Positions 21,716 to 44,183 of a DNA stretch of 64,000 nucleotides are shown piece after piece; position 1 is the first letter of the stretch; each line of letters begins with the position of its first letter. The notes beneath the pieces were generated by a model, which was not told the DNA's origin, made no database searches, and worked only from the letters and a program-made list of their open reading frames with translations. The DNA lies in the NCBI GenBank assembly GCA_022843045.1, contig JALHOJ010000003.1, positions 1 through 64,000 on the forward strand. Direction: 5' to 3'. The DNA is from Phycisphaerales bacterium (GTDB taxonomy: Bacteria > Planctomycetota > Phycisphaerae > Phycisphaerales > UBA1924). The position numbers and the translations under genes were made by a program.

Positions 21716-23716
21716 TCAGTTGCCGGAGCACTGGCAGGGGCCCTCGGCGAAGACGCTGAGGAAGCTGTCGATGTCGCAGGGGTCGAAGGACGCGCCGTCG
21801 TTGTTGAAGTCGATGTCGTTGCAGATGGCGGCGCCGGGGATGCAGGGGCCTTCGGAGTAGACGGAGAGGAAGGCGTCGATGTCCTGGGGATCGAAGAGCG
21901 CGCCGTCGTTGTTGAAGTCGATGGTGTCGCAGGAGACGGGGCGGAGGTCGTTGGCGGGGCCGCGGAGGAGGACGCGGTTGTTGTAGGTGCGGAGTTCAAA
22001 GCCGGTGACGGTGAAGTTCGCGTCGCCCGCGTTGAGCGGGAAGTTGTGGAAGTTCTGGAAGGCGACTTCGAACTGGCCGTTGGCGAGCGGGCGCACGTTG
22101 ACTTCGAGGAAGCCGTAGTGCTTGCCGCCTCGGAGGAGCTGGTTGCCGTTCCAGAGCTCTGGCTCGCTTTGGTCGGCGGTCCAGCGGTTGAAGGGGTTCA
22201 TGGTGAAGCTCTGGCCTTCGGGGTTGAGGGGGTTGTTGCGCCAGTTGGTGATGCTGTTGTTGACGAAGCCGGGAGCGTCTTCGACGCCTCGCAGGCCGTC
22301 GCCCGCGAAGCCGACGTCCCAGAGGTGGACGCCGTAGCCGTCGTTGTCGAGATCGAAGAAGCTCATCTCGGCGACTTCGCTATGGCCGCAGAAGATGCCG
22401 GCGACGCGGAACTGCTCGGCGAGGGGCGCGTAGATGCGCATGGCTTCGCCGCTCTGGGGGCTGGTCACGCTGCTGCCGTGGACGCCTCGGGAGAAGGGGG
22501 TGTGGTGCCACTGCAGGAAGATGATCTGGCCGCGGGCGCGGGCGTCGGCGAGGGCGGCGACGGCCCAGTCGTACTGCGTGGTGCCGACGTTGAAGTCGGG
22601 GATGTCGGCGGGGGCGTAGGGGGTGCTGAACCAGGCGCGGTTGGTGTCGCGGTTGGCGGGGAAGTTGATGTTCAGGCCCTGGCCCGGAGGCGGGGCGACG
22701 CGGCTGTTGGCTTCTTCGGTGGCCTTGACGGAGCAGAGGGTGATGACGGTGACGGGGCCGTAGTCGGTGGTGTAGTAGAGGTCCTGGAACGGGGCATTGC
22801 CCGCGCTGGGCCAATCGAAGTACGCGCTCCACTGCTGGCGGGCGTAGGAGATGAGCTGGTTGGTGTTGGGGCCGCCGTTGCCGCCTTCGCCCGCGCCGAC
22901 GCCGTTGAAGATGCAGTTGTTGCCGATGGCGGCGATCAAGGGGCGAGCGCTGAGCAGGTCGTCGTACTGCCCGGCGTTGTGGCGCCAGAACTCGTCCCAG
23001 CGGCGCTGCTGTTCGGCGCCGGTGCCTTCGATCAGGTCGCCCGGCATGATGATCATGTCGGGATCGCGGAGTTCCATCTGCTTGATGTTCTCCTGGTAGC
23101 CGAGGGTTTCGGTGACCAAGTACGCGTCACGGCCGCGGCCGGTGCCGGCGGGGCGGCCGGTGCTGCCCGGGAGATTGGGCGTGCTGCGGGCCCACTCGCG
23201 GAAGCGGGTGCGGCCTGAGACGAGGGTTTCGGAGTCGCTGACGACGTGGAAGCGCATGCTGCGCTGGGTGGTGGCGAGCGGGGCGGTGCGGAAGGTGTTG
23301 GAGTAGGTCGATGCGCCCTGCGAGACGGTGTAGGTGTACTCGGTGTCGGGCGCGAGGCCGGTGACGGTCAGGGCGTGCTTGAAGTTGCGGGCGGGCTGGC
23401 CGGCTTCGAAGATCGCGGTGGTGGCGAAGGGGAACGCTCCGCCCGCGGTGAGCTCGGCGGGGATCTGGTAATCGAGGACGGGGATGAGCGTGGGCGAGGA
23501 GGTGAGGACGAGGGGGCTGGCGAGGTTGCCGCCGGTGATCGTCAGCGTGCCGGGCGCGTCGACTGGCGTGAACCAGTTGAACTGCAGGCCCTGCGTGGTG
23601 AGGCTCTGTTGGTATGGCAGCACGCGGAAGTCGCCGACGCTGGCGAGGGTGGTGGCGGCGAAACCGCACGCTGCGATCAGCGATGCGGCGAACAGACGGA
23701 CGGCGCGATGGGCCAT
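21716..23716 (-). CDS. Secreted metallophosphoesterase-like protein with C-terminal dockerin-like repeats
   Basis: 666 residues from ATG 23716 with signal peptide (MAHRAVRLFAASLIAACGFA). Residues about 100-150 (DTEYTYTVSQGASTYSNTFRTAP) resemble the fibronectin-like N-terminal domain of purple acid phosphatases. The catalytic part shows MIIMPGDLIEG, AIGNNC (GNH-like motif with Asn-Cys), QWHHTPFSR and FCGHSEV, the order of metal ligands in calcineurin-like phosphoesterases. The C-terminus has two cysteine-flanked repeats, DFNNDGALFDPQDIDAFLSV and DFNNDGASFDPCDIDSFLSV, each resembling a dockerin/EF-hand calcium loop and ended by EGPC. The same tail is on the proteins at 36217 and 37660. The upstream ORF continuation to 24298 is a shadow. 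Confidence 0.88.
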   Translation of the reverse strand: MAHRAVRLFAASLIAACGFAATTLASVGDFRVLPYQQSLTTQGLQFNWFTPVDAPGTLTITGGNLASPLVLTSSPTLIPVLDYQIPAELTAGGAFPFATTAIFEAGQPARNFKHALTVTGLAPDTEYTYTVSQGASTYSNTFRTAPLATTQRSMRFHVVSDSETLVSGRTRFREWARSTPNLPGSTGRPAGTGRGRDAYLVTETLGYQENIKQMELRDPDMIIMPGDLIEGTGAEQQRRWDEFWRHNAGQYDDLLSARPLIAAIGNNCIFNGVGAGEGGNGGPNTNQLISYARQQWSAYFDWPSAGNAPFQDLYYTTDYGPVTVITLCSVKATEEANSRVAPPPGQGLNINFPANRDTNRAWFSTPYAPADIPDFNVGTTQYDWAVAALADARARGQIIFLQWHHTPFSRGVHGSSVTSPQSGEAMRIYAPLAEQFRVAGIFCGHSEVAEMSFFDLDNDGYGVHLWDVGFAGDGLRGVEDAPGFVNNSITNWRNNPLNPEGQSFTMNPFNRWTADQSEPELWNGNQLLRGGKHYGFLEVNVRPLANGQFEVAFQNFHNFPLNAGDANFTVTGFELRTYNNRVLLRGPANDLRPVSCDTIDFNNDGALFDPQDIDAFLSVYSEGPCIPGAAICNDIDFNNDGASFDPCDIDSFLSVFAEGPCQCSGN

Positions 23717-23814
23717 GGACACGCTCCTGTGTGACAATCCCGGGGCCCTGGCCACGCGCGACACGATTCGCGCGAGACGGTGGGCCTGATGGGTGCAACA
23801 GAAGCGCGCAGCAC

Positions 23815-23833
23815 TTCGCAACAGCGTTGCGAA
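23815..23833. promoter_or_regulatory. Palindrome upstream of the phosphoesterase gene
   Basis: TTCGCAAC-AGC-GTTGCGAA is a perfect inverted repeat, nested in an imperfect larger one (GCGCGCAGCACTT ... AAGTGCGCGC). It is about 100 bases before the phosphoesterase start and 55 bases after the amidohydrolase stop. It could be an operator or a terminator; there is no U-run, which favours the former. Confidence 0.4.
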
Positions 23834-23888
23834 TGCAACAAGTGCGCGCCAAGTTTTGGTTTGGTGCCAAACTGGTGTGGAATGACGA

Positions 23889-26800
23889 TCACCACGCGTG
23901 CCAGCCGCAGCCGCAGACGCCAGGCATGTAGCGAGGGTCGCGTCCACTGCGGAGCATCTCCATGTGGAGCTGATGCAGTTGCTCGCGTTCCTCGTCGGAG
24001 AGCGAATCTTCGCCCGGGCGGCGGCCGCGGCGCGGCGGGGCAGCGCCGTCGGAGCCGGCTTCTGGCTTGGGGTCGTCGGGCGTGGCGTCGGACTTCTTCT
24101 TCTCGGCGAGCAGCTTGTTGATGAGGCGGTCGCGTTCCTTGGCGATCCAGTCGCGATGTGCCGCGTCCTGTTCGACGCTGTAGAGCTCTCGGCCGTCGAC
24201 CCAGGTGCGATCGACGCGGGCGTAGGTGGACATGGGGTGGTCGGTCCAGAGCGCGAGGTCGGCCACAGAGCCGACCTTGATCTTGCCGACCTTGTCATCG
24301 ATGCGCAGCTGCTTGGCGGGGTTGAGCGTGACGAACTTCCAGGCTTCGCTTTCGCTGAAGCCGCCGACTTCGCGGCCGTACTTGACGGCCTTCGCTGCTT
24401 CGACGTTCAGGAAGCGTGCCAGGCTGTTGCTGTCGCTGTTGAAGCTGGTGGTGGCGCCGACCTTTTGCATGAGCGGCAGGCCGGCGGGGATGGCGTCCTG
24501 AACTTCGACCTTGAAGGCCCACCAGTCGGCGAAGCCCGAACCGCCGCCTGAGTAGTCGCGGACATAGTCGGCGACTTTGTAGCCTTCCAAGATGTGCTGG
24601 TAGGTGCCGACCTTGAAGCCAAAGTCGCGGGCGATCTGGCTGAGCATCACGATCTCGTCCTGGCGGTAGCTGTGGCAGTGGATGAGGCGCGTCCCGGCGA
24701 GGATTTCGGCGAGGGGTTCGAGTTCGAGGTCGATGCGAGGGGGATTCACGCTCGCCTTCGCGGCGGCGTATTCCTTCGCGGCGATGAAGCGATCGCGGAT
24801 GAGCATTTCGACGCCCATGCGGCTGCGCGGGTATCGCGTGGTTTGGGCGTCCCAGTTCACCTGCTTGGGATTTTCGCCCAAGGCGAACTTGATGCCTGGG
24901 ATTGCGTTTTCGAAGTGCATGTCTTCGGGGCGATATGCGCCCCAGCGGAGCTTGGTGGTCTGGCTTTGGCCGCCGATGGCGTTGGCGCTGCCGTGGAGTT
25001 GGAGGACGCTGGTGACGCCGCCGGCGAGTTGGCGGTACCAGTTGACGTCGTCGGGATTGGTGACGTCCTCGATTCGGACTTCTGAGGTGACGGCCTGGCC
25101 GCCTTCGTTGACGCCTCGGCTGATGCCGGTGTGGCTGTGGGCGTCGATGATGCCGGTGGTCAAGTGCTTGCCGGTGGCATTGATGCTGATGTCGGAGGCT
25201 TGCATTTCGATGCCCTGGGTCATGGGCACGATTTGGGTGATGACACCGTTTTCGATGAGGACGGAGTGTTCGCGGAGGATGCCTCGGTTGCCTTCGGCAT
25301 CGGCGGGGGCTTCGTCGTCGTTGGTCCAGATGACGGCGTTTGAGATCAGGACGCGGTTCTTCGTGGGCTGGTCGAAGAAGCCGTAGGGTCCGAAGGGGAC
25401 GGGGAGCTTGTCGGGGAGGCCAGCGAGGAGTTGGTCAAATTCGGCGGCTTCGTCCTTGTCATCCTTCACTTCAAGGCGGGCGGCGTATTCGTGCTTGGTG
25501 CCGTCGGGCATGGTGCTGACGCCACGGAGTTCGGAGCCGACGCGGGTGATGGTGTCGGAGGACTTGCCTTCCATGCCCAGGGGCTTGAGGTCGTGGGAGA
25601 AGGTGATCTTGCTGCCATCGAACTTGAGGTCGTCGGCGTCGATTCGGATGTCTTTCTTGCCGGGCTCGCTGAAGATGACGGTGAGTTTCTTTTCGCCCAA
25701 CTCCAGGCGGACCTTGTCGTCGTCCTTGGAGTCTGGCTCGACCTTGCCGTCCATGCGGACGACGATCCAGGTGCCCTTCCACCACTTCTCGCTGTCTTCG
25801 AGCTTGCGGGAGAGGAAGGGGAAGGAGCCGTTGGGGCTTTCGACGCTGCCCCGCAGAGTGACGGGCTTGGCGGTCCAGTCGGCTGTGAGGCGGACGGTGA
25901 CGTCGGGGTGCTTGCCGTCCCCCGCCATGTCGGCGCTGAGGAGCTTGTACGAGAGCGTGGTGCCGTCCCAGGCGACTTCGCGGGCGGCGATCTTCTCTTC
26001 GACGCCTTCGTTGGTGAAGTTGACGATTTCGACTTTGGGAGCGCGGTCCTTGGAAAGGTCGTCGGCGTCGGTGATGCGGATGAGGCCCGTGCTGTGCTCG
26101 CCCATCGGGTCGTTGTCGAAGATCATGGGCCAGTCGCCCGCGAGGCTTTGGGGTTCGCGGGTGAGGCCGTACTGGACGACGCGGCCGCCCGGCAGCACGA
26201 CGCGGCCGTTGCCCTTGTTGGCGGTCGGCGCGGCTTCGCCTTCGGAGTCTTCGACATCGAAGGTGATGGCGACGGAGGCGATGCCGTCGTCGCCGAATTC
26301 GTCGTGGTCGAAGATGAAGGAGATGAAGCCGTCCTGCTGCGTCACCTTGCGGGCTTTGGCCTTGACGGTGGTGGGCTTGGGCGGTTCCTTGGCTTCTTCG
26401 GCGGGCTTGTCTGCGGGGGCGGGAGGGACAGGGGTGACCTTGCGGACTTCGACGGAGCCGTCCTTGGCGATCACGAGAGTGCGAACCGCGCCGTCAGGCG
26501 TGATCATGTCGGTGCGCCAGGTGCCGGCGAGCTCGATCTTGGGCTTGTCGCCTTCGTGGAGGATGCCGTCGACGATGGTGGCGCGGAGTTTGGTCTTCTT
26601 GTCGAAGATGGGGCCGGTAGCGAGGAGGAGGTTGGCACGCTTGCCGGGCTCGATGGTGCCGAGTTGGTCGGCGACGCCCAGCATCTCGGCGGGCTTGGTG
26701 GTGAGGGCGGCAAGGGCCTGTGTCTCGGTGAGGCCGAAGGCAATGGCCTTGCGGAGGTTGGCGGTGAATTCGTTTCGGCTCTTGAGCTTGCTGGTGGTGA

Positions 26801-27917
26801 GGGCGAAGTCGATGCCTGCGCTCGCGAGGCGGCGCGGGTTGGATGGGGCCTGCTCCCAGGTCATCATTTCGCGGAGGTCGGTGGCGTCGGCCTTGCCCGG
26901 GCTGGCAACGTCGGGGGCCTTGGGGAAGTTGAGCGGCAGGATGTAGTCGTGGTCGTCCTGCTTGATGGCTTCGAGGCGCGCGAACTCGGTGCCGCAGCCT
27001 AAGACGAGCATGCCTTTTGCCTCGCCACCGGCCTTGATGAACTCTTCGTAGATCTTGTCGGCGCGGAGGGCTTCGAGTTCGTCGGCGGAGTCAAAGACGA
27101 GCCACTGGTTGCTGAGGTTGGTCGAGAACAAGTGCGAGAGGCAGTGGGGGACTTCCAGATTGGGCTGGGGGTTCTTTTCGAGCCAGAGGGTGTCGCTGAA
27201 GACTTGGCGCACGAGCGCGATGGCGCCCATCTGGCTGTCGGGGTAGCCGCGGCCGCCGGTTTCGATGGAGAAGGTCTGGTACGCGTCATCGCGATAGACG
27301 GGCGGCTTGTCCGCGCTTGCAAGGCCTGCGGAGCGAGCGAGGCTGACGACCGCGCTGCGGCCTCGGAAGTTGCCGCCCTTGGGCGTGATGGCGGCGGCAG
27401 CAAAGCCCAGGTCGCGGAGGCTCTTGGCGGTGGCGTCGTCGATGCCGGGGCCGTCGAGGGCGCGGCGCTGGGGCGTAACAGCTTCGTTCCAGTGGGACTC
27501 GACGGCGGCGCGGCCGTCGCCCCGGGCTGCTGGGGCGGGTGCGTCGACTTCGACGTAGGCGTCGATGAAGGCGGGGTAGACGTGCAGGCCTTTGGCCTTG
27601 ATGATGGCGGGGCCCATGGGGGCGCGGGCGACGACGTCGTCGTCGGTGTTTTCCTTGCCGTCGGCACCGAGGGAGCCGGGGAGGATGGCTTGGATCAGGC
27701 CGTCTTTGTACACGACGACGGCGCGATGGGCGACTTCGCCGGCCTTGGGGTGGACGGTGACGTCGCTGAGGGCGACCCAGGTGGGATCGGCTCGGCGCGG
27801 GCCGTTGGCTGGCGGGGCGAAGGGCGAGGAGGAAGTGGGCTGCGCGCCCGAGAGGGTGGCGAGGAAGAGGGCGAGGCCAGCGCTGCTGATGCGCACGCGA
27901 GGGAAGGTCGGAGACAT
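23889..27917 (-). CDS. Secreted double amidohydrolase-family protein
   Basis: 1342 residues with signal peptide (SAGLALFLATLSGA). Two amidohydrolase units are joined by a beta-rich middle (about 470-870). In the N-terminal unit the metal-binding HxH is replaced (VYPAFIDAYVEVDAP), so it probably cannot bind metals there, although the end of the fold is intact (ALTTKPAEMLGVADQLGTIEPGKRANLL). The C-terminal unit is complete: TTGIIDAHSHTGIS with HSH, then HCHSYRQDE, GTYQHILEGYK and the SDSNSLARFLNVEAAKAVKYG region with the catalytic Asp, ending in VGSVADLALWTDHP. Such enzymes hydrolyse cyclic amides or peptides (imidazolonepropionase and dipeptidase relatives); substrate unknown. The last residues are Cys/Trp-rich (GVCGCGWHAW). 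Confidence 0.9.
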   Translation of the reverse strand: MSPTFPRVRISSAGLALFLATLSGAQPTSSSPFAPPANGPRRADPTWVALSDVTVHPKAGEVAHRAVVVYKDGLIQAILPGSLGADGKENTDDDVVARAPMGPAIIKAKGLHVYPAFIDAYVEVDAPAPAARGDGRAAVESHWNEAVTPQRRALDGPGIDDATAKSLRDLGFAAAAITPKGGNFRGRSAVVSLARSAGLASADKPPVYRDDAYQTFSIETGGRGYPDSQMGAIALVRQVFSDTLWLEKNPQPNLEVPHCLSHLFSTNLSNQWLVFDSADELEALRADKIYEEFIKAGGEAKGMLVLGCGTEFARLEAIKQDDHDYILPLNFPKAPDVASPGKADATDLREMMTWEQAPSNPRRLASAGIDFALTTSKLKSRNEFTANLRKAIAFGLTETQALAALTTKPAEMLGVADQLGTIEPGKRANLLLATGPIFDKKTKLRATIVDGILHEGDKPKIELAGTWRTDMITPDGAVRTLVIAKDGSVEVRKVTPVPPAPADKPAEEAKEPPKPTTVKAKARKVTQQDGFISFIFDHDEFGDDGIASVAITFDVEDSEGEAAPTANKGNGRVVLPGGRVVQYGLTREPQSLAGDWPMIFDNDPMGEHSTGLIRITDADDLSKDRAPKVEIVNFTNEGVEEKIAAREVAWDGTTLSYKLLSADMAGDGKHPDVTVRLTADWTAKPVTLRGSVESPNGSFPFLSRKLEDSEKWWKGTWIVVRMDGKVEPDSKDDDKVRLELGEKKLTVIFSEPGKKDIRIDADDLKFDGSKITFSHDLKPLGMEGKSSDTITRVGSELRGVSTMPDGTKHEYAARLEVKDDKDEAAEFDQLLAGLPDKLPVPFGPYGFFDQPTKNRVLISNAVIWTNDDEAPADAEGNRGILREHSVLIENGVITQIVPMTQGIEMQASDISINATGKHLTTGIIDAHSHTGISRGVNEGGQAVTSEVRIEDVTNPDDVNWYRQLAGGVTSVLQLHGSANAIGGQSQTTKLRWGAYRPEDMHFENAIPGIKFALGENPKQVNWDAQTTRYPRSRMGVEMLIRDRFIAAKEYAAAKASVNPPRIDLELEPLAEILAGTRLIHCHSYRQDEIVMLSQIARDFGFKVGTYQHILEGYKVADYVRDYSGGGSGFADWWAFKVEVQDAIPAGLPLMQKVGATTSFNSDSNSLARFLNVEAAKAVKYGREVGGFSESEAWKFVTLNPAKQLRIDDKVGKIKVGSVADLALWTDHPMSTYARVDRTWVDGRELYSVEQDAAHRDWIAKERDRLINKLLAEKKKSDATPDDPKPEAGSDGAAPPRRGRRPGEDSLSDEEREQLHQLHMEMLRSGRDPRYMPGVCGCGWHAW

Positions 27918-27993
27918 CGGGACAGGTTAGACCGGTTTCGGCAGCAGTGCGGCGTGGGACACGCCATCCGCACACGGCGGGGTATTCGAATTC

Positions 27994-28100
27994 AGAGCCG
28001 AGACACAGAGAAATGGAAATGGCTGAGAACGAAAACAGGAAGCGGTCTGCGCGACCCGCGCATCCCTTCTCGTTCTCCTCATCACTTTGTCTCGGTGCTC
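27994..28100. repeat. Two-armed gene-border palindrome
   Basis: Left arm GAGCCGAGACACAGAGAAAT through GAGAACGAAAAC; right arm, read in reverse, GAGCACCGAGACAAAGTGAT through GAGAACGAGAAG. Sits between the amidohydrolase start and the CPBP gene end. Confidence 0.65.
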
Positions 28101-28136
28101 AAGTCGGACGGCCCGACGCGATCGCTCTCGCGACGC

Positions 28137-29252
28137 TCAGGAGTTCGTCGCCACCAACGTCGCCAGAGCCACGTTCATCGCGTTGAAGATCACGTGCATC
28201 GTGATCGGCACGCCGATTTCCTTGGTGCGCTCGAAGGCGATGCCCATGCACAGGCCCAGGATGCCCACCGTCGCGGCGGAGTACCAGGGAATCACGCCCG
28301 TCAGGCTCTCGCCCTTGTTGAGGGCGACCAGAATCGCCGGCAGCATGTGGGCCCCGGCGAACAGGATGCTGGTGATGATGATGCTGGTCCAGGGGCGGCC
28401 GGTGAGCTTGAGGATGCTGCTCTGGATGAAGCCTCGGTAGATGACTTCTTCGACGACGGGGGCGGCGATGATGGCCATGACGGCCATGCTCCAGGCCCAG
28501 GCGTCGTTGCGGTTATCGAGGAGCATCTGCAGCGTCGGGTGCGCGATCCGCTGGACCTGCTCGCCCGAGATGTTCTGGTGGAGCAGCACGAAGCCGAAGG
28601 AACTGGCGATCACGATGGGCCAGGCCATCACGCCCGCGGCGGTGCCCCAGGCGAGCGAACGGGCGGTGAATGCGAGGCCCGAGCCCTTGCTGCTGCCCGC
28701 AATCAGACGGGCGAGCACGACGGCGGTGATGATGGCGGTGAGGTATTGCAGGCCAGCGAGCACGGCGACGTTCTGGGGTGTGCCAACGTCGCCCCGGTAC
28801 TTGCCCGGCACGAACTGGGCGAAGGCCCCACCGACGATCTGGGCACCGGCAACAAGCAAAGCGCAGCTGAACCAAAGAGCCGCGCTGTGGGGCTCGACGC
28901 TGCGCTTGCCGGCGCGTTCGAGTGAGCCGGGGCGGATGACGTCCGCGAGGAGGAGGGCGATGATGACCACGCCCGCCGCGACGGTGTGGCCCCAGAGCCA
29001 GGGATCGCTCTTGAAGAGTTTGGTGAAACTGTCGGCGGCTTGGGTCGCGGTGGCCCCGACGGCTTCGGCGGTCTTCTGGACGCCTTCCTGCACACCTTCC
29101 ACGCCGACTTGGCTGGCAAGGGCGGGGGAGGCGAGGGCGAGGCAACCGAAGGCGGCGAAAAGGCCGATACTCGGGGAGAAGCCAAGAATGGCACCCTTGC
29201 GCCTCGTGCCCTCGGGGTGCGAAGCGTTGGATGAGGAGAGCGTCGAGTTCAT
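28137..29252 (-). CDS. CPBP family intramembrane metalloprotease
   Basis: 371 residues. ATG 29252 chosen (MNSTLSSSN), preceded by AAAGG at 8 bases on the minus strand; the longer track ORF to 29513 is a shadow of trpC. After a signal-like first membrane segment and an Ala-rich loop come about seven membrane helices. The CPBP (Abi/Rce1) motifs are all present: EEVIYRG near residue 267, GAHM, and ITMHVIFNAMN near the C-terminus, which supply the Glu, His and Asn/His metal ligands. Members cleave membrane-bound substrates such as prenylated or bacteriocin-like peptides; substrate not known here. The start codon overlaps the trpC start codon on the other strand. Confidence 0.92.
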   Translation of the reverse strand: MNSTLSSSNASHPEGTRRKGAILGFSPSIGLFAAFGCLALASPALASQVGVEGVQEGVQKTAEAVGATATQAADSFTKLFKSDPWLWGHTVAAGVVIIALLLADVIRPGSLERAGKRSVEPHSAALWFSCALLVAGAQIVGGAFAQFVPGKYRGDVGTPQNVAVLAGLQYLTAIITAVVLARLIAGSSKGSGLAFTARSLAWGTAAGVMAWPIVIASSFGFVLLHQNISGEQVQRIAHPTLQMLLDNRNDAWAWSMAVMAIIAAPVVEEVIYRGFIQSSILKLTGRPWTSIIITSILFAGAHMLPAILVALNKGESLTGVIPWYSAATVGILGLCMGIAFERTKEIGVPITMHVIFNAMNVALATLVATNS

Positions 29253-30129: not shown

Positions 30130-30148
30130 GGGAGGATGCCGGAACGTT

Positions 30149-30166
30149 GGCATTCGGGATTCGGGA
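30149..30166. repeat. One-armed ATTCGGG repeat
   Basis: GGCATTCGGGATTCGGGA, the same 18-base core as in the two-armed element at 12047. Follows the trpC stop. Confidence 0.6.
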
Positions 30167-30254
30167 ATCGTGGGAACGGGTGCTGCACGTTGCAACCGAG
30201 GATTGCGTTAGACTGTCAGATGACAATGTTGGGCCAGCCTGGCGCTGGCCACTT

Positions 30255-30263
30255 AGGAGGAGT
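30255..30263 (+). promoter_or_regulatory. Strong ribosome binding site deciding a TTG start
   Basis: AGGAGGAG lies 7 bases before TTG 30270 and 16 bases before the first ATG (30279), so initiation at TTG is favoured. Confidence 0.75.
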
Positions 30264-30269
30264 TTTCGC

Positions 30270-31661
30270 TTGAACACGATGTCTCGTTCGTTGCTGGTTG
30301 GGTTGATGTTGGCGGCTTCGGCGGGCACTGTGGTGCCGTCCATCGCTCTGGCGCAGGATTCCAACGCGCCCGCGGCCGCGCCTGCGGATGGCAAGGCGAT
30401 CTTCCAGCGCGCCCTCGACGCGATCAACCGGGCGCATGCGATTACCGCGGATGCAACGTTGACGCCCGAGGGCTCGATGCTGAGCCGGGCGTATTCGGCG
30501 AGTACAGCGAGCATCAAGGCCCGCCGCGCTTCGGAGACCAGCAGCACCTGGATGGTGCGCGTGACGGGAAGTTCGGGCGAGCAGCGTGTCGACGTCGCGT
30601 GGACTGAGCAAAGCCTCGAAGGTGTTGACCACACGAAGAAAACAGTGGTGGAGCGTCCCGGGCAGGGCACGCCCGTGCCCGGATTGCGGCTGGCGCAGGT
30701 GCTGCGATTGCGCGAAGTGTTGTCGCCCCAGCCTTACAAGGACGCGCTCGCGGCGAGCGAGTTCACCATGGAAGGCGAGAAGACCGTCAACGGCGAACTG
30801 TGCGATGTCGTGCTCGTGGGCGCGAGCGGCACCTCGAAGAAAACCCGCTGGGCGATTGCGCGGAGCGATTCGTTCCCGCGTCAGATGCAACAGGTCTTTG
30901 AAAGCGCGAGCATGCAGGGGACGCTGACGATCGATCTCAAGTCGGTGCGGGTTGACAACAACGTGACGCCCGACCTGCCCGCGGAAGAACTGCGGGTCGA
31001 CGTGCCCGAGGGATACACCGAGGATCGTCAGGTGAACACGCCCAGCGTGCGGCCCGTGCCTGGGAAGCAGCCTGTCGAGGCGACGCCCAAGGCCGAACCC
31101 GCCGCGACTCCATCGCCTGCTCCCGAGCAGCCCGCGCCTGCTCCGGCCCCGACTCCCGAGCCGCCCAAGGGCCCGCAAGCCGCGGCGGATTTTGAGCTTT
31201 CTACACCCACTGGCGAAAAGGTGAAGCTCGCGGACCTCAAGGGCAAAGTTGTGGTGATGCAGTTCTGGGGAAGCTGGTGCCTGCCTTGCCGAGAGTGGCA
31301 TGGGACGTTGTCGAGCAGCGTGAAGACCGCGGCGGGGGAAAAGGCTTCGGAGGTTTCGACGCTGGCGCTGGCGGTTCGGGAGCGGGACAATCAGAACGCA
31401 GTGAGCGAACTGGCGGCTCGCAGTGCTTCGAGCGACTACAAGCTGCTGCTCAGCGCGGATTCGGTCGCGAAGCAGTATGGGGTTGCGGTGTTCCCGACGA
31501 CGGTGGTCGTCGACAAGGACGGCATAATCGCGGCGACGGTGACGGAACTGGGCAGCGACGGAGCGGCGAAGGTTGAGGCCGCCGTACGGAACGCGTTGGG
31601 ACTAGCCGCGCCGGCGAGCGAGGAAAGCACCGAGGCGGCGAAGGAAGTCGCAACGAAGTGA
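30270..31661 (+). CDS. Secreted TlpA/thioredoxin-like protein with N-terminal LolA-like domain
   Basis: 463 residues from TTG 30270 (LNTMSRSLLVGLMLAASAG), supported by an AGGAGGAG site; the track ORF start at 30147 is too far upstream. After the signal peptide come about 230 residues with beta-strand pattern (TSSTWMVRVTGSSGEQRVDVAWTEQSLEGVDH) like LolA/DUF2092 carrier proteins. A Pro/Ala-rich linker (about 255-305) leads to a thioredoxin fold with FWGSWCLPCREW, the redox-active CxxC of TlpA/ResA proteins, and the cis-Pro in VFPTTVVVDKDG. It should act as a disulfide reductant outside the cytoplasm. The trmB gene follows 22 bases later. Confidence 0.9.
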   Translation: MNTMSRSLLVGLMLAASAGTVVPSIALAQDSNAPAAAPADGKAIFQRALDAINRAHAITADATLTPEGSMLSRAYSASTASIKARRASETSSTWMVRVTGSSGEQRVDVAWTEQSLEGVDHTKKTVVERPGQGTPVPGLRLAQVLRLREVLSPQPYKDALAASEFTMEGEKTVNGELCDVVLVGASGTSKKTRWAIARSDSFPRQMQQVFESASMQGTLTIDLKSVRVDNNVTPDLPAEELRVDVPEGYTEDRQVNTPSVRPVPGKQPVEATPKAEPAATPSPAPEQPAPAPAPTPEPPKGPQAAADFELSTPTGEKVKLADLKGKVVVMQFWGSWCLPCREWHGTLSSSVKTAAGEKASEVSTLALAVRERDNQNAVSELAARSASSDYKLLLSADSVAKQYGVAVFPTTVVVDKDGIIAATVTELGSDGAAKVEAAVRNALGLAAPASEESTEAAKEVATK

Positions 31662-31683
31662 GTGGGTCGTAAGTCGCGCCGCC

Positions 31684-32499
31684 ATGCCCCAAGACATCTC
31701 CCACGGAAAACCCATCGACGATGCCCCGGGCGTGATCGGCGTGATCACGCCCGCGACGCTGCGCCATCATCCAGAGGCGGGCGCGATCGAGTATCCGCCC
31801 CTGCCCGATGACATCGCGAGCAACCCGCGGAGCGGCTTCGTGCGCCCGGCGGGTTGGTTTCGCGATGGCGAAGCGCGACTTGAACTCGAGATCGGCTGCG
31901 GCAAAGGCACGTTCATTCTCGAACAGTCCGGCGCGAGCCCCGCGACCAACTACTTGGGCATCGAGTGGCAGTATGAGTTCTACGCGTACACCGCCGATCG
32001 CCTGCGCCGCGCCCGCCGGGGCAACGTGCGGATGCTGCACGCGGACGCGAGTGAGTTCCTTCGCTGGCGATGCCCCGACGCGACGTTTGACGTGATCCAT
32101 CTGTACTTCAGCGATCCCTGGCCCAAGGCCAAGCACCACAAGAACCGCGTGGTGCAGCATCGGTTTCTGCGTGAGGTCTGGCGGGTGCTGCGGACGGGCG
32201 GGGAGCTGCGCGTGGTGACGGATCATGATGAATTGTGGCGCTGGGACGCGGATCACTTTGCGTTCTGGATTCGCGCAGGTGACGTGGTGATCGATTCGAC
32301 CGACGAGTACGACACCAGCGTGCACAAGAGCGCTCCGGCAGCGATGGAAGGCCTGCCGCGCCCGGCGTTTGAACTCGCGGCATTCACGCCACCCGAGTGG
32401 GTCGGCGAGGGGTGCGTCGTGGGGACCAACTACGAGAAGAAGAAGTGCGTGGCGGCGAGCAAGGAGCCGCACGCGTGTGTGTTGAAGAAGCTTCCATAG
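31684..32499 (+). CDS. trmB: tRNA (guanine-N7-)-methyltransferase
   Basis: Methylates G46 in the tRNA variable loop using S-adenosylmethionine. 271 residues; LELEIGCGKGTFI near residue 66 is the cofactor loop, NYLGIEWQYEF supplies the acidic ribose ligand, and YFSDPWPKAKHHKNRVVQ near residue 143 is the unmistakable TrmB signature. The extra N-terminus (about 55 residues) and the C-terminal tail (YEKKKCVAASKEPHACVL) make it a bit longer than Escherichia coli TrmB. Follows the thioredoxin-like gene closely. Confidence 0.96.
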   Translation: MPQDISHGKPIDDAPGVIGVITPATLRHHPEAGAIEYPPLPDDIASNPRSGFVRPAGWFRDGEARLELEIGCGKGTFILEQSGASPATNYLGIEWQYEFYAYTADRLRRARRGNVRMLHADASEFLRWRCPDATFDVIHLYFSDPWPKAKHHKNRVVQHRFLREVWRVLRTGGELRVVTDHDELWRWDADHFAFWIRAGDVVIDSTDEYDTSVHKSAPAAMEGLPRPAFELAAFTPPEWVGEGCVVGTNYEKKKCVAASKEPHACVLKKLP

Positions 32500-32515
32500 A
32501 TCATGAAGCGCAGTC

Positions 32516-32552
32516 AAAACCGGGGCTTCGTCGCTCCGCGACTCAGCCCCGG
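32516..32552 (-). terminator. Terminator between convergent trmB and rhodanese genes
   Basis: CCGGGGCT / AGCCCCGG outer stem with an inner GTCGC/GCGAC stem. On the minus strand TTTTG follows; it may also work for trmB on the plus strand. Confidence 0.75.
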
Positions 32553-32587
32553 CGTTCGATTGCGCAGCTTGTTGACTTCGAAACGGC

Positions 32588-33433
32588 TTACGCGCCCTTC
32601 TCAATCGGTGCGCCGATGAGATTGCCGTACTCCGTCCAGCTTCCGTCGTAGTTCTTCACGTCCTTCACGCCAAGCAGTTCGCGCAGCACAAACCACGTGT
32701 GGCTGCTGCGTTCGCCGATGCGGCAGTAGGCGATGGCGGGCTTGGCGAAGTCGACGCCGGCCTTGCCGTACAAGTCGCGGAGTTCGTCGGCGGCTTTGAA
32801 GGTGCCGTCTTGGTTCACGGTTTGGGCCCAGGGGATGTTGCGTGCGCCGGGGACGTGCCCGGCGCGTTGCGCGGTTTCGGTCATGCCGGGCGGGGCGATG
32901 ATCTTGCCGGTGAACTCGTCGACGCTGCGGACGTCAACCAGGTTCGTGCGCTTGGTGGCGACGGCTTCGAGCACTTCAGGGATCTTCGCGCGCAGGCCCG
33001 CGTTGAAGCCGTTGACCTTGTAGTGGCTGGGCGCGAAGTTGGGCTTGTCGGTGGCCAGGGGCTTGTCATCTTCCGCGAGCCACTTGGCCCGCCCGCCGTT
33101 CATCAGACGGACGTCTTGGTGCCCGTAAATCTTGAAGAGCCAGTAGCCATATGCGGCGAACCAGTTGTTGTTGTCGCCATAGAGAATGACGGTGTCGCTG
33201 GGCTTGATGCCCGCATCGCTAAGCAGGCGTTCGAAGCCCGCCGCGCTCACGATGTCGCGGTTGGTCTGGTCCTGGAGCTGCGTGACCCAGTTGAGCGACG
33301 CGGCTCCGGGGATGTGCCCCGCGTCGTAGACCTTGGGATCAACGTTGACTTCGACGATGCGGACATTGGGGGTCTTGAGGTTCTCCTTGACCCAATTGGT
33401 GGAGACCAGGACGTCGGGATTGGCGTAGGACAT
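32588..33433 (-). CDS. Thiosulfate / 3-mercaptopyruvate sulfurtransferase (double rhodanese)
   Basis: Transfers sulfane sulfur from thiosulfate or mercaptopyruvate to cyanide or thiols. 281 residues from ATG 33433 (MSYANPDVLVSTNW), with AAAGG 6 bases upstream; the track ORF to 33670 is a shadow. Two rhodanese domains: the inactive N-terminal one with YDAGHIPGAASLNW (near 37) and the active C-terminal one with LVDVRSVDEFTG and the Cys loop YCRIGERSSHTW (Cys near 234). CRIGERS is the type of loop found in thiosulfate-preferring enzymes (CRxGxR). Next to a PLP cysteine synthase-type gene, so a sulfur metabolism neighbourhood. Confidence 0.95.
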   Translation of the reverse strand: MSYANPDVLVSTNWVKENLKTPNVRIVEVNVDPKVYDAGHIPGAASLNWVTQLQDQTNRDIVSAAGFERLLSDAGIKPSDTVILYGDNNNWFAAYGYWLFKIYGHQDVRLMNGGRAKWLAEDDKPLATDKPNFAPSHYKVNGFNAGLRAKIPEVLEAVATKRTNLVDVRSVDEFTGKIIAPPGMTETAQRAGHVPGARNIPWAQTVNQDGTFKAADELRDLYGKAGVDFAKPAIAYCRIGERSSHTWFVLRELLGVKDVKNYDGSWTEYGNLIGAPIEKGA

Positions 33434-33477
33434 GGGGGGCCTTTGTGTATGGTGACGGGTGGTGGATCGACGCTTCC

Positions 33478-34554
33478 TTACGGGCGCGTTTCGTGATCGC
33501 CCGCGAGCGCGGGCAGATGCTTGACCATCGAACTGATGTACTTGAACACGTTGTCGCAAAAGATCATCACGCCCAGCCCCTGAGCGGGTTTGTCGCGCTC
33601 GAGGATCATGCGTGCGCCTTCGAAGATCAGGCCGCTCGAAGGGCCGGCGAAGAGACCTTCGCGTTGACACAGCCCAACTGCGGACGTGTAGGCCTTTTCA
33701 AACGGCACTTCGAGCACCTCGTCGATCAGCGAGGGATTGAAGAGCTTGGTGACGTGGAGTTCGTCCTTGTTGCGGATGCCCGGGACGTCGTGACCTTGGC
33801 TGGGCTGCAACGCGATGATCTTGATGGCGGGGTTCTTGGCTTTGAGAAACGTTGCCACGCCCGTGACCGTGCCGCACGTGCCCAAACTCGTGAAGAAGTG
33901 CGTGATGCGGCCGCCGGTTTGTCGCCAGATCTCCGGCCCTGTGGTTTCGATGTGGGCCTGGACGTTGAGCGGATTCTCGTACTGGTTGGGCATGACGTAG
34001 CGATCGCTCTGGGCCTTGGCATAGGTGCGTGCGAGGCCGATACTGCCTTCGCCCATGCCTGGGGATGGGCACATCGCGTCGGTCAAGACGTCGACTTCCG
34101 CGCCGGCGAGACGCAGCATGACCTTCTTTTCTTCAGGCACCTTCTCGGGCACGATTGCGCGCATGTGGTACCCCTTGGCACTGGCCATCGCGGCGAGCGA
34201 GATGCCGGTGTTGCCGCTGGTGGGTTCGACGATGCCTCGCCCATGTTTGGTGATCTTCCCGTCGCGATCGCGCTCGTCGCGTGTGAGTTGGCCGCGTTGT
34301 TCGAGATCACGCAGCAAGTAGCTCGCAGCCCGGTCCTTGACGCTGCCGAAGGGATTCATCCATTCGAGCTTGGCGAAAAGCTCGAAGGTGCTTTCTCCGC
34401 GATCGAGCTGGTCCCGCAGCGGGTGCAGCGAGTTGATGCGGACGAGGGGCGAAGGGTTGGCTTCGCTGGGGAGCAGGTCGAAGACCGAGTCGTACACGCG
34501 CGCGGCGTGGTCAGGACTTCGGGAAGCAGAGTTGGATTGGGCTGTTTTGGTCAC
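33478..34554 (-). CDS. PLP-dependent cysteine synthase family protein
   Basis: Fold-type II PLP enzyme, likely O-acetylserine sulfhydrylase or cystathionine beta-synthase-like. NPFGSVKDR carries the Schiff-base Lys (residue 73 from GTG 34554), EPTSGNTGISLA is the substrate loop and TSLGTCGTVTGVA the phosphate-binding loop. The last part (FAGPSSGLIFEGA) completes the fold. The start is uncertain: GTG 34626 in the track lies in a hairpin (CACGCTGC/GCAGCGTG), GTG 34554 has no ribosome site either. I use 34554, giving 358 residues. A small insertion with MCPSPGMGEGSIG sits in the middle. 45 bases separate it from the rhodanese gene, so probably one transcript. Confidence 0.9.
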   Translation of the reverse strand: MTKTAQSNSASRSPDHAARVYDSVFDLLPSEANPSPLVRINSLHPLRDQLDRGESTFELFAKLEWMNPFGSVKDRAASYLLRDLEQRGQLTRDERDRDGKITKHGRGIVEPTSGNTGISLAAMASAKGYHMRAIVPEKVPEEKKVMLRLAGAEVDVLTDAMCPSPGMGEGSIGLARTYAKAQSDRYVMPNQYENPLNVQAHIETTGPEIWRQTGGRITHFFTSLGTCGTVTGVATFLKAKNPAIKIIALQPSQGHDVPGIRNKDELHVTKLFNPSLIDEVLEVPFEKAYTSAVGLCQREGLFAGPSSGLIFEGARMILERDKPAQGLGVMIFCDNVFKYISSMVKHLPALAGDHETRP

Positions 34555-34796
34555 GCGTTGCTCGCTGGGGGGAAGGGGGCCGCGACGTCGCGGTGGGTGC
34601 TTGATCCGAACCGTGGGACCCGTCACGCTGCGTGGGCAGCGTGGGGGCTCGGCCTTAGATGACGATCAGGTTGAAAGGGGACCCCGAAAAACCGCTTGCT
34701 TCTTCGCGCGATCAGGCGCGACAACAGCAACAATCGAGCGTACAACAACACACGCGTGCGACGCCTGTCGCGGCATGGCTGGTCTCGTGGTTCAGG

Positions 34797-36080
34797 ATGA
34801 ACAAGTCGCTCACCATTTCGCGTGTCATTCCTGCTCCGCTGGGCGTCGTCGAGGCGTATCTCGCGAGTCCGGGCGGCCTGCTGCGGCTCATGCAGTCGCA
34901 AAACATACGCCGGTTGCCGCCGCGAGGCTCGACCCTGGCCCAGCAATTCCAACTGGATCAGGTCACATTTGATCAGATGCCGCATGATGCGATGGGGTTA
35001 CCCGATCCACTTCCCGGACCCGGCACGAAGGCGACGCTGGCGCGGGTGACGCTGTCTGAGGGGTTGGCGAGCCCGCGCGAGGTCGCGCTGGCGAGGCGGC
35101 GGCTGACGCGCCTCGCACATGACTGCCAACGCTTGCACGAGTTCGCTTTGCCTCCCAAGAAGATAGTGATCACCGGCGCGGCGGGCCTCATCGGCTCGGC
35201 GCTGCTGCCCATGTTGGTGGCGGCAGGGCATCAGGTGACGCGGCTGGTGCGCGGCGGTGGGGGAAGGGCGTCTGAATTGCCTGTGCAGCAAGCGATGTGG
35301 CAACCGCAGGGGCAGGGAGCGGGCGCTCTCGATCCGTCTGTGCTCGATGGCGCGGATGTGGTGATTCATCTCGCGGGCGAGCCCGTGGGTGGCGCCCGCT
35401 GGACCAAAGCGCGGCTCGCGGCGATCCGCGACAGTCGCGTTGAAAGCACGAAGCTGCTGGCCCGGGCAATGACGCAAGTCAAGACGCCGCCCAAGTTGCT
35501 GCTGTGCGCGTCGGGGATCCATGCGTACGGGGATCGCGGGGATGAGGAATTGACCGAGCGGTCGGACATCGGCAGTGGCTATCTCGCGGAGGTGGTGCGG
35601 GATTGGGAGGCCGCTGCGCAGCCCGTGCGGGATGCGGGCGTGCGCGTGGCCAACATCCGGTGGGGATTGGTGCTGTCTCGCCAAGGCGGCGCGCTGCGGG
35701 AGATGCTGCCGCTGTTTCGAGTTGGACTGGGCGCGATCCCCGCGCCGGGGTCGCAGTGGTGGCCTTGGGTGTCGCTGGATGACGCAATCGCGCAGGCGCT
35801 GTGCGTGTTGGCGCGGGAAGAACTCTCCGGGCCAATCAACGGCGTCGCGCCGCAGTCGGCGACGGCGGCAGAGTTCTGCCGGGCGCTGGCGCGAACAGTG
35901 GATCGGCCACTGCTCGCGCGGGTGCCGCGCTGGATGCTCGCGGCGGTCTTTGGCGGGCAGGAAGAAGCGATCTGCACGAGTACGCGAGCAGTGCCCGAGG
36001 CCCTGCGCGGCGCGGGCTTTTCGTGGGAGCATCAGACGCTCGGGGAGGCGTTGGGGTGGGCGTTGGGCGAAGCCAGTTGA
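34797..36080 (+). CDS. TIGR01777 family oxidoreductase (NAD-dependent epimerase fold) with N-terminal SRPBCC-like domain
   Basis: 427 residues from ATG 34797 (MNKSLTISRVIPAPLGVV); the longer track ORF from 34659 looks uncoding at its start. Residues 1-115 resemble the lipid-binding SRPBCC fold that is often fused to this family. The second part has ITGAAGLIGSALLPMLV, the dinucleotide loop, followed by HLAGEPVGGARWTKARLAAIRDSRV, the best family mark, and CASGIHAYGDRGDE with Ser and Tyr. Physiological substrate unknown; eukaryotic relative SDR39U1. A perfect hairpin overlaps its stop codon. Confidence 0.88.
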   Translation: MNKSLTISRVIPAPLGVVEAYLASPGGLLRLMQSQNIRRLPPRGSTLAQQFQLDQVTFDQMPHDAMGLPDPLPGPGTKATLARVTLSEGLASPREVALARRRLTRLAHDCQRLHEFALPPKKIVITGAAGLIGSALLPMLVAAGHQVTRLVRGGGGRASELPVQQAMWQPQGQGAGALDPSVLDGADVVIHLAGEPVGGARWTKARLAAIRDSRVESTKLLARAMTQVKTPPKLLLCASGIHAYGDRGDEELTERSDIGSGYLAEVVRDWEAAAQPVRDAGVRVANIRWGLVLSRQGGALREMLPLFRVGLGAIPAPGSQWWPWVSLDDAIAQALCVLAREELSGPINGVAPQSATAAEFCRALARTVDRPLLARVPRWMLAAVFGGQEEAICTSTRAVPEALRGAGFSWEHQTLGEALGWALGEAS

Positions 36081-36103
36081 TCAAGTCGATTGACTTGATC
36101 AAC
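36076..36103 (+). terminator. Perfect hairpin overlapping the stop codon
   Basis: GTTGATCAAGTC-GATT-GACTTGATCAAC, a 12-bp stem; the stop TGA lies inside the left arm (36078-36080). No U-run follows, so its role as terminator is uncertain; it could protect the mRNA 3' end. Confidence 0.5.
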
Positions 36104-36216
36104 GGGTTCCATGCGCGAGCGTGGGTCAACGCCAGCGGCATGACTCGCGCTCGTGGCGTTTGACTTCGCTTGCGCCAAGGGCCTGTTGGCCATAGGTGGT
36201 TCGCTTCACTGTGGCG

Positions 36217-37368
36217 TTACACGCCGCAGAGCGTGCAAGGTCCCTCGCTGAACACCAACAGGAAGCTGTCGATGTCGCAGGGGTCAAACAGGCTGCCATC
36301 GTTGTTGAAGTCGATGGAGTCGCAGGTGCTGGTTTCGGGAACGCACGGGCCTTCGCTAAAGACGCTCAGGAACGCGTCGATGTCGACCGGGTCAAACAGT
36401 GAACCGTCGTTGTTGATGTCGATGTCGTTGCAGGCGATGGGGGGTGTCAGGATGAGTTTGCTGATGAACCGACCGCCCGCTGTGGTGAGAAGTGACTGCG
36501 GGGTGCCGACTTGCGGGTCAAACCGGCGCAGACCGCCGACGCCCGAAACGCCATCGGTGTAGAGCACGTCAAAGCCGCCATCGGGACGAGGCGGCAGCGG
36601 CCAGATTCCTCGACCACCGGTTGTCAGATTCGGATAGAACGCGATCAGCGCGCCGCTCGCATCAAATCGATACGGCCCGGCGGGCACAAACGCCGTGGAG
36701 AAGGTGTTGACCCAGAACTCTGTCGCACCGCCCGGACCGGTGTTGGCGACCTTGACCTGCTGGGGCGTGCGGAACCAGTTCGAGGTGCCGTTCACGAGGA
36801 CCTGAGCGTTGGAGCCGTCTACGTCGCAGACGATGAGGTCATCGCTTTCGATGTCGGTGATGAGCAGCCGCCCGTTGTATGCCTCGACGTCGACTGGATC
36901 GACAATCAGGCCCGAGAGCGGATTGGTGATGACGATGTGGCCCACGCGGGTGCCGTTGGTTTCGAAGATCACGATCGAATCGCCCGGCGCTCCGTTACCG
37001 GTGCCTGCGTTGGCGACGTACACGCGGTTTCCAACCAGCGCGAGGCCTCGAAGCAGGTCGAGCTGACCAGAGATCGACCCCAGAAAAGTCGGCGAAGGCT
37101 CGGCGGTGAATCGGAAGATGGAGTCGGCGAGGCCGTCGGTCAGCCAGACTTCGTTGCCGACCTGCAAGGCTTCGAACGGAGTCTGGAGGTCGTAGATCGT
37201 GGGGGAGTTGGCGTCGTCAATAAACGGAACGCCTGAAATCTCGCCCGTCGCGGGATCGAGCAGGGCGACCTCGTCGAGAATGGAATCGACGTACATCAGG
37301 TACTCAGTCTGCGCGGAGGCGAGGCTGGCGGAGCCGGCGAGGGTCAGGAGGGCGAGAGTGCGGTTCAT
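36217..37368 (-). CDS. Secreted beta-propeller-like protein with dockerin-like C-terminus (paralogue 1)
   Basis: 383 residues. Signal peptide MNRTLALLTLAGSASLASA. The body (20-300) has repeated propeller-blade patterns such as LLRGLALVGNRVYVAN, VEAYNGRLLITDIESDDLIV and GGFDVLYTDGVSGVGGLRRFDP, similar to NHL or SMP-30-like repeats. The C-terminus has two cysteine-flanked repeats, DINNDGSLFDPVDIDAFLSV and DFNNDGSLFDPCDIDSFLLV, ending EGPC, with the same form as the tails of the 21716 and 37660 proteins. The downstream paralogue is about 60 percent similar by eye. The AT-rich block before the start is shared with it. Function unknown; likely surface or complex-bound. Confidence 0.85.
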   Translation of the reverse strand: MNRTLALLTLAGSASLASAQTEYLMYVDSILDEVALLDPATGEISGVPFIDDANSPTIYDLQTPFEALQVGNEVWLTDGLADSIFRFTAEPSPTFLGSISGQLDLLRGLALVGNRVYVANAGTGNGAPGDSIVIFETNGTRVGHIVITNPLSGLIVDPVDVEAYNGRLLITDIESDDLIVCDVDGSNAQVLVNGTSNWFRTPQQVKVANTGPGGATEFWVNTFSTAFVPAGPYRFDASGALIAFYPNLTTGGRGIWPLPPRPDGGFDVLYTDGVSGVGGLRRFDPQVGTPQSLLTTAGGRFISKLILTPPIACNDIDINNDGSLFDPVDIDAFLSVFSEGPCVPETSTCDSIDFNNDGSLFDPCDIDSFLLVFSEGPCTLCGV

Positions 37369-37406
37369 GAAGTGCGGTCCTTATCTGCGGAGTGTGAAGC
37401 TAGAGA

Positions 37407-37450
37407 TACGCACTGTACCAGAATCGTTGCCTGGAGCTTCGCAAAAACGC
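37407..37450 (-). promoter_or_regulatory. Conserved upstream block of dockerin paralogue 1
   Basis: TACGCACTGTACCAGAATCGTTGC, 11 variable bases, GCAAAAACGCGGC (plus strand). It matches the block at 38843 before the second paralogue. The reverse contains a -10-like TACAGT. Likely promoter plus operator. Confidence 0.45.
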
Positions 37451-37587
37451 GGCAAGCGAGCCACAATCCGGGCCATCAGCGCCGTTGGAGACCGGGCGGC
37501 GACTGCATCTGAGGGGCTTCGAGCGTTGGCCAAGGTGCTGGATCCAGCTTATGAGACCGATCAATCAGCTTTGCACGCCAGGAAAGG

Positions 37588-37622
37588 CAAACGCCAGTTG
37601 CGTGACTCACGCAGCTGGCGTT
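37588..37622 (-). terminator. Terminator of dockerin paralogue 2
   Basis: AACGCCAG-T-TGCGT ... ACGCA-G-CTGGCGTT stem with one mismatch; on the minus strand it is followed by TTTGCCTTTCC. Lies about 40 bases past the stop at 37660. Confidence 0.7.
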
Positions 37623-37659
37623 CGGACTTGCACGCGAAGGGGATGCGGGGACGAGCGAT

Positions 37660-38799
37660 TCAGACGCCGCACAGGGTGCACGGCCCTTCGCTGAACACCA
37701 ACAGGAAGCTGTCAATGTCGCAGGGGTCAAACAGGCTGCCGTCGTTGTTGAAGTCGATTGAGTCGCAGGTGGCGGTTTCCGGCACGCATGGACCCTCACT
37801 GAACACGCTCAGGAATGCGTCAATGTCGGTGGGATCGAAGCTGCTTCCGTCATTGTTGACGTCGATGTCGTTGCAGACGGGGTTGGAAGCGAGCGTCACG
37901 CTTCCCACATACTGCCCGCCCGAACTGGACACGATCGTTGAGGGCGTGCCGACGGCGGGATCAAACTTTCGCAAGCCGCCGATGCCTGACACGCCGTCGG
38001 TGAAGAGCACGTTGAACGCGCCTGCACTGTCACGCGGGAGCGGCCAGACGCCTCGGCCACCGGTGGTCACGGGGTAATAGGCTACTTGCACGCCTGCTGG
38101 GGTGAACCGATACACGCCCGCGGGCGAACTGAAGGCGTTGACCCAGATCTCCTGCGTGCCGCCCGGCCCGGTTGTGTCGACGCGGACCTGCTGCGGGAAC
38201 TCCATGAAGTTGAGATTGCCGTTGACCAGAACTTGAGCGTTCGAGCCGTCGACGTCGCAGACGACGAGGTCTTCGCCTTCGATGTCGGTGATGAGCAGGC
38301 GGCCGTTGAAGTCCTCAACGTCAAACGGATCGACCGGGAGTCCGGTGCTGGAATTGTTCACGACAAAGCTGCTGACGAACGTGCCGTTGGTTTCGTAGAC
38401 CACGATGGCATCGCCTGGTGCGCCGTTGGCGGTGCCAGCGTTGGAGACGTACACGCGATTGCCGACCAGTGCCAAGCCGCGGATGTTGTCCAGTCCGCCC
38501 GTGATCGCACCAATGAAGTCGGCGGGTTGGGTCGCGGTGAAGCGGTAGATGGCGTCGGAGAGCTGATCCGTCACCCAGACTTCGTTGCCGACCTGGATGG
38601 CTTCCTTGGGAGTCTGGAAGTTCCAGGTGAGCGGATCGTTGGCGTCGGTGATGAAGGCAAGTCCAGTGATGTCGCCCGTGGCCGCTTCGATCAGTATAAC
38701 TTCGTCGAAGTTGGAGTCGACGTACATCAGATAGGGCTGCGCGCAGGCGAGTGTGGAGGCTCCGGCGACGGCGAGGAGGGCGGCGATGGAACGGTTCAT
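37660..38799 (-). CDS. Secreted beta-propeller-like protein with dockerin-like C-terminus (paralogue 2)
   Basis: 379 residues from ATG 38799 (MNRSIAALLAVAGASTLACA), with AAAGGAAG about 6 bases upstream; the track start 38823 is too early. The order and sequence of blades match the neighbour at 36217 (for example LRGLALVGNRVYVSNAGT, NGRLLITDIEGEDLVVCDVDG, NVLFTDGVSGIGGLRKFDP), so the two arose by tandem duplication. The tail DVNNDGSSFDPTDIDAFLSV and DFNNDGSLFDPCDIDSFLLV, then EGPCTLCGV is nearly identical to that of the other copy, more so than the propeller part. Separate transcription is likely, since both have their own conserved upstream block and a terminator lies between. Confidence 0.85.
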   Translation of the reverse strand: MNRSIAALLAVAGASTLACAQPYLMYVDSNFDEVILIEAATGDITGLAFITDANDPLTWNFQTPKEAIQVGNEVWVTDQLSDAIYRFTATQPADFIGAITGGLDNIRGLALVGNRVYVSNAGTANGAPGDAIVVYETNGTFVSSFVVNNSSTGLPVDPFDVEDFNGRLLITDIEGEDLVVCDVDGSNAQVLVNGNLNFMEFPQQVRVDTTGPGGTQEIWVNAFSSPAGVYRFTPAGVQVAYYPVTTGGRGVWPLPRDSAGAFNVLFTDGVSGIGGLRKFDPAVGTPSTIVSSSGGQYVGSVTLASNPVCNDIDVNNDGSSFDPTDIDAFLSVFSEGPCVPETATCDSIDFNNDGSLFDPCDIDSFLLVFSEGPCTLCGV

Positions 38800-44003: not shown

Positions 44004-44183
44004 GATGGACACGCCGCGCCCGGGAATTCACGGGCCAGCCGAGACACATCGGCCACTTTTCACGACCGCTTGCGTGGTCGTGGCGTCGCACCCTGCCCCC
44101 CACGCTGCGATGGCGGCCCAAGCGGGATGGCTCCGCGCTTGACTCGCTTGGCTCCCCATGAACGGCTACCCCAACCACGGGGT

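Follow-up and report, generated by a model that had tools for sequence, protein, structure and literature searches.

A divergent, lineage-specific dockerin-like tail on about 150 proteins of a Phycisphaerales genome, with dialects that shift apart from their passengers

About 150 otherwise different exported proteins of a Phycisphaerales bacterium end in nearly the same acidic, two-unit tail, which is best read as a divergent, lineage-specific GC-type dockerin. It came to light on three proteins of the 64,000-nucleotide stretch of DNA analysed here (the window). We consider it probable that the tail is a calcium-loop tag which docks or anchors its passengers through a shared receptor other than a recognisable cohesin, and which is spoken in lineage dialects; the anchoring and the receptor are the parts that we infer.

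In textbooks, dockerins belong to complexes built on cohesins. In this genome, and in most dockerin-rich relatives that were sampled, dockerin-like tails number from tens to about 150 without any recognisable cohesin, and the genome-specific dialects shift independently of the passengers, so that the missing receptor could be sought directly, and testably, by a comparison of dialects, which also bears on how a cell keeps about 150 separate genes matched to one partner. Dockerin-like modules are already known in Phycisphaerae (NF041540; the planctosome proposal, PMC6461901), and cellulosomes provide known cases of species-specific recognition between cohesin and dockerin (Pages 1997, as PMC2930009 cites it). 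We found no description of this unannotated dialect, its scale or the passenger-independent replacement of tails in a limited open-access literature, and no open-access papers on the GC-type dockerin or on dockerins together with PEP-CTERM.

Tail-bearing proteins of the window

All three proteins lie on the minus strand and end in two tail units (Table 1), as a previous sequence-only reading of the window had described, save that the spacing it gave as C-x-I-D is in fact C-x-x-I-D. It had called the proteins unrelated; this stands for the phosphoesterase, whose tail is the sole part shared with P0002, but P0002 and P0003 are tandem paralogs, 67% identical along their whole length, which leaves two unrelated kinds of protein. 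The core DNA pattern GAYNNNAAYAAYGAYGG, a degenerate form for D-x-N-N-D-G, occurs six times in the window against 0 expected, each time inside one of the three tails.

Table 1. Coordinates of the tail-bearing proteins and their tails in the window
Feature	Position	Strand	Remarks
Secreted calcineurin-like phosphoesterase (P0001; passenger and tail)	21716..23716	-	Start at 23716 likely
71-aa dockerin-like tail of the phosphoesterase	21719..21931	-	Unit 1, 21824-21931; unit 2, 21719-21823; long subtype (DPC and terminal extra Cys)
P0002, secreted all-beta protein (propeller-like, unproven) and tail	36217..37368	-	
71-aa dockerin-like tail of P0002	36220..36432	-	Unit 1, 36325-36432; unit 2, 36220-36324; long subtype
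P0003, tandem paralog of P0002, and tail	37660..38799	-	67% identical to P0002
71-aa dockerin-like tail of P0003	37663..37875	-	Unit 1, 37768-37875; unit 2, 37663-37767; long subtype

The phosphoesterase matches Pfam Metallophos (21.9 bits) and the purple acid phosphatase N-domain. Its open-reading frame from 24298 runs into and overlaps the upstream amidohydrolase gene; the true start is likely the ATG at 23716 (MAHRAVRLFAASLIAACGFAATTLA), which appears by eye to open a signal peptide, and orthologs with 73-83% identity share this start position. That upstream gene (23889-27917, minus strand) is a single 1342-residue frame with two amidohydrolase halves, directly adjoining the phosphoesterase, and a hybrid histidine kinase with CHASE, PAS, HisKA, HATPase and receiver domains lies at 40702-44325 on the same strand. 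P0002 and P0003 gave no Pfam match and a full-length AlphaFold model of P0002, built from two sequences only, was too poor for use (pLDDT 42); the beta-propeller fold earlier suggested for the pair is not established.

Anatomy and predicted fold of the tail

The tail is 71 residues long and consists of two 36-residue units of the form C-x2-I-D-x-N-N-D-G...FDPxDID...EGPC, with the consensus CDxIDFNNDGSxFDPxDIDAFLSVFSEGPCIPxxAT CNDIDFNNDGSLFDPCDIDSFLLVFSEGPCTxCGx. D5, N7, D9, D14, D17, E27, G28 and the cysteines C1/C30 are invariant in unit 1. The positions of calcium-ligand type (D5, N7, D9, D17) are invariant or nearly so, and calcium binding is predicted on that basis. Every copy has an acidic residue at position 13 of the loop (D17), whilst position 12 is not acidic as a rule; the loop D5-x-N7-x-D9...D17 has 13 residues, against 12 in the canonical form, and some dockerins of Ruminococcus flavefaciens likewise have loops of 13 (PMC2930009). 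Net charge is about -14, with 0.3 Lys or Arg residues per copy. The extra cysteine of the second unit (DPC), held at first to be constant, is present in all window tails and in 93 of the 128 complete tails of the genome. These 93 carry both C16 (DPC) and C33 (the terminal T-x-C-G), 35 carry neither and none carries one alone, an all-or-none pattern as expected of a disulfide, so that a C16-C33 bond would be the simplest reading.

AlphaFold, run on 45 tails from two genomes, predicts two loop-helix units with helices at 15-25 and 51-61 (pLDDT 94.2, pTM 0.81). All eight Foldseek matches in the PDB were dockerins, the best with a TM score of 0.72 (6kgf); the E-values all exceed 1 because the module is tiny, and what carries the case is that every match is a dockerin. 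A PDB sequence search with the tail returned no match. By this prediction the tail would be a dockerin in the structural sense, two loop-helix F-hand units. The sequence-only reading, which had proposed a dockerin-type calcium module, agrees with the predicted fold, with the invariant or near-invariant D-x-N-x-D loop and with the sole sensible full-length, though weak, match to a curated family, the GC-type dockerin.

A divergent member of the GC-type dockerins

NF041540, the NCBIfam model of the GC-type dockerin, scored at best 16.4 bits against the tails (cut-off 29), with weak matches, near full-length, in 8 of 124, and it had 0 matches at E <= 0.001 in the own genome. Across the order it is found in 101 of 151 genomes, commonly with at least 37 matches per genome; the congener G083, whose tail dialect is intermediate, has four, and the phosphoesterase of other genera carries recognised members. 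The tail shows the traits of the family (C-terminal position, two calcium-loop units, many copies per genome): both are about 67 residues or little more in length, built of two D-x-N-x-D-G units, present in tens to about 100 copies per genome and found in the same order, but the tail here has the one-residue-longer loop, more cysteines and EGPC ends. A divergent, lineage-specific GC-type dockerin is the best reading. The tail profile, searched across 95 genera, matched this genus only; with the G083 tails added, and run on 397 genomes of the class, it also matched four other genera, weakly.

Other families fit less. With the cellulosomal type I dockerin (PF00404; PDB 6kgf, 4dh2) the tail shares the predicted fold and the tandem calcium loops, but it gives no PF00404 match (124 tails, E <= 1), has almost no basic residues and lacks the 12-residue loop, its passengers are not mainly cellulases and no cohesin was found. 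The type IX secretion sorting-domain model is absent among the NCBIfam and Pfam matches of the 124 tails. The tail contains no PEP motif, transmembrane helix or basic end, which places it outside PEP-CTERM. In Pfam no relevant model matched the 124 tails; weak matches to GEVED, an EDC4-like propeller and EF-hand_7 covered few residues and were at chance level.

Copy number, position and export

A profile of the three window tails matched at least 149 places in the genome (G000; 4.08 Mb, 91% complete), where GAYNNNAAYAAYGAYGG occurs 202 times and its reversed control 0 times. If genes average about one per kilobase, the tail-bearing set is an estimated 4% or so of them. This scale, like the replacement of tails between related genomes described below, is invisible from the window alone.

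Tail sequences were taken from the genome stretches around the profile matches. The tail forms the extreme C-terminus in 128 of 128 complete, distinct two-unit copies; L044 is an exception, a protein with one tail unit only. A diverged copy in L311:3337-5020 (plus strand, contig 49) stands at the N-terminus, directly after the signal peptide, showing that the module is not bound to the C-terminus. Signal peptides were called by our own crude rule, with other long frames of the same stretches as controls: a signal-like start was present in 118 of 126 complete tail frames versus 89 of 177 control frames, and fell inside the first 60 codons in 90 tail frames versus 43 controls. The passengers form 61 sequence clusters and their recognisable domains are of extracellular type: Reprolysin, subtilase, M1 and M10 peptidases, GH16, esterases, MauG-type peroxidase, Ig, PKD and CBM96. 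Tails on cytoplasmic proteins or lacking signal peptides, which had been named as the finding that would speak against a secreted module, are not what this distribution shows.

The search for a cohesin

No cohesin partner had been seen in the window, and this extends to the whole assembly, in which neither the Pfam cohesin nor a lineage-tuned cohesin profile gave a match of weight. The one weak match, an AsmA-like protein by its look, was at chance level. None was found in the congener or in most dockerin-rich genomes of the family, and amongst the 151 genomes of the order cohesin occurs in 10, the GC-type dockerin in 101. L201 and L207, from other families of the order, combine cohesin, HYR-like segments and a dockerin in one protein; their layout resembles the adaptor proposed for the planctosome.

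These counts bear on the possibility that the tails serve a classical cohesin scaffold of planctosome or cellulosome type, one too diverged for detection or encoded in the missing ~9% of the assembly, which we rate as rather unlikely. The predicted dockerin fold and the cohesin-dockerin proteins of L201 and L207 speak for it, as does the planctosome, a cohesin/dockerin peptidase complex proposed for freshwater Phycisphaerae (PMC6461901), that is, for the same class and with dockerin-like modules on secreted peptidases among others. The planctosome model, however, requires cohesin proteins, and both searches fail in this genome, its congener and the majority of the family's dockerin-rich genomes, an absence which missing assembly cannot account for in all of them.

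One phosphoesterase, many C-terminal modules

Orthologs of the window phosphoesterase were found in named Phycisphaerae assemblies. Their passengers are 56-83% identical over ~550 residues, up to a common LRPV boundary, and diverge sharply from the tail start (21931) onward; across 15 related genomes the enzyme ends in different terminal modules. After the boundary L223 and L224 carry an FPDD dialect, L225, L226, L229, L230, L232 and L234-L237 carry dockerin-like tails of several kinds, and L227, L228 and L233 have instead an unrelated C-terminal domain of ~130 residues; a PEP-CTERM segment closes a more distant relative (L238, 45% identical), and relatives from Vibrio have no tail at the end. 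L225 (genome G036, another genus) is 79% identical to the window enzyme, versus 73% for that of the congener, yet has a wholly different tail. GC-type dockerin counts in the genomes of nine dockerin-tailed orthologs are 81, 71, 59, 45, 94, 110, 48, 72 and 54, against 0, 0, 0 and 1 in those of the three orthologs with the other domain and the one with PEP-CTERM; the terminal module predicts the genome-wide count with a one-sided p of 0.0014, a value that overstates independence, as the genomes are related. The C-terminal slot is a place for whichever shared C-terminal system the genome uses, and the presence of PEP-CTERM in the same slot points to localisation.

Rather than staying on the protein as a docking module, the tail might act as a signal for sorting or secretion at the C-terminus, recognised and possibly cut off by dedicated machinery in the style of PEP-CTERM/exosortase or type IX systems. 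Like PEP-CTERM it marks diverse exported proteins throughout the genome, nearly always at their very C-terminal end and with the uniformity typical of such signals, and in L238 PEP-CTERM takes its place. We nonetheless think this unlikely: the tail is predicted to be a stably folded, acidic dockerin module rather than a short motif with a transmembrane helix and a basic end, and the N-terminal copy in L311 would be unusable for a C-terminal sorting machine. A search for cohesin-like or sorting enzymes, as the sequence-only reading advised, was empty for the former and for the latter found two exosortases (L313, G000 contig 25, 14000-22000; L314, contig 8) with at least eight PEP-CTERM matches; as these form a separate, coexisting set, they probably do not use the tail as a signal.

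A further alternative is a stabilising or self-associating calcium module, spread by domain shuffling and with no common receptor. Secreted proteins commonly end in tandem calcium-loop repeats, and no receptor was found, but such a module need be neither uniform within a genome, nor replaced as a set between close relatives, nor matched to the genome-wide system in every ortholog, and we hold it to be improbable.

Tails evolve apart from their passengers

Tail proteins of this genome and of the congener G083 were paired by reciprocal best match of the passengers. In the 27 ortholog pairs passenger identity ranges from 29 to 87%, whilst tail identity stays between 34 and 49% (median 42), compared with a median of 41% for random between-genome tail pairs and with 77% and 74% for tails within each genome, across the 61 passenger clusters; the Spearman rho between passenger and tail identity is 0.31 (p 0.11). 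The tail tree groups by genome: 65 sampled tails of G000 form an exclusive group, with weak support (0.45), and 44 tails of G083 fall together with that of L223 (support 0.94).

At the conserved sites of the tail, synonymous codon choice lies close to the background (homozygosity 0.63 versus 0.55 expected), with the exception of some Ser codons (AGC at S26 and S62) that are more uniform than background. Such usage fits protein-level selection better than recent gene conversion or DNA copying, and the amino-acid sequence of the tail would accordingly seem to be held by selection. That uniformity stems from recent conversion or copying of tail DNA, free of functional constraint, is highly improbable, since most synonymous sites are near background whilst the amino acids are fixed, although the AGC codons at S26 and S62 do show common descent.

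Shared anchoring, as first proposed from the window, is still the best reading of these patterns, and one that we infer. The passenger would be exported by Sec, after which the tail would fold around calcium and bind a cognate receptor, or a small number of them, at the cell surface or within an extracellular assembly, bringing very different enzymes and binding proteins to one location. The receptor would not be a recognisable cohesin. The dialect would be kept uniform from passenger to passenger by the need to fit one common receptor, and where the receptor changes, or a passenger moves to another genome, the tail would be replaced or re-adapted whilst the passenger stays. A bolder form of the anchoring reading, which we offer tentatively, is that the roughly 150 exported proteins have in common a dockerin-like address tag, specific to the lineage and recognised by a non-cohesin receptor, that the whole set of tags may be rewritten together when the receptor changes, and that passengers on the move may swap their old tag for the local one.

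A separate observation concerns the ~130-residue domain of L227, L228 and L233 (FGxGCxG...GFPGCxLxVDP...), which occurs in genomes without GC-type dockerins and is possibly another shared tag.
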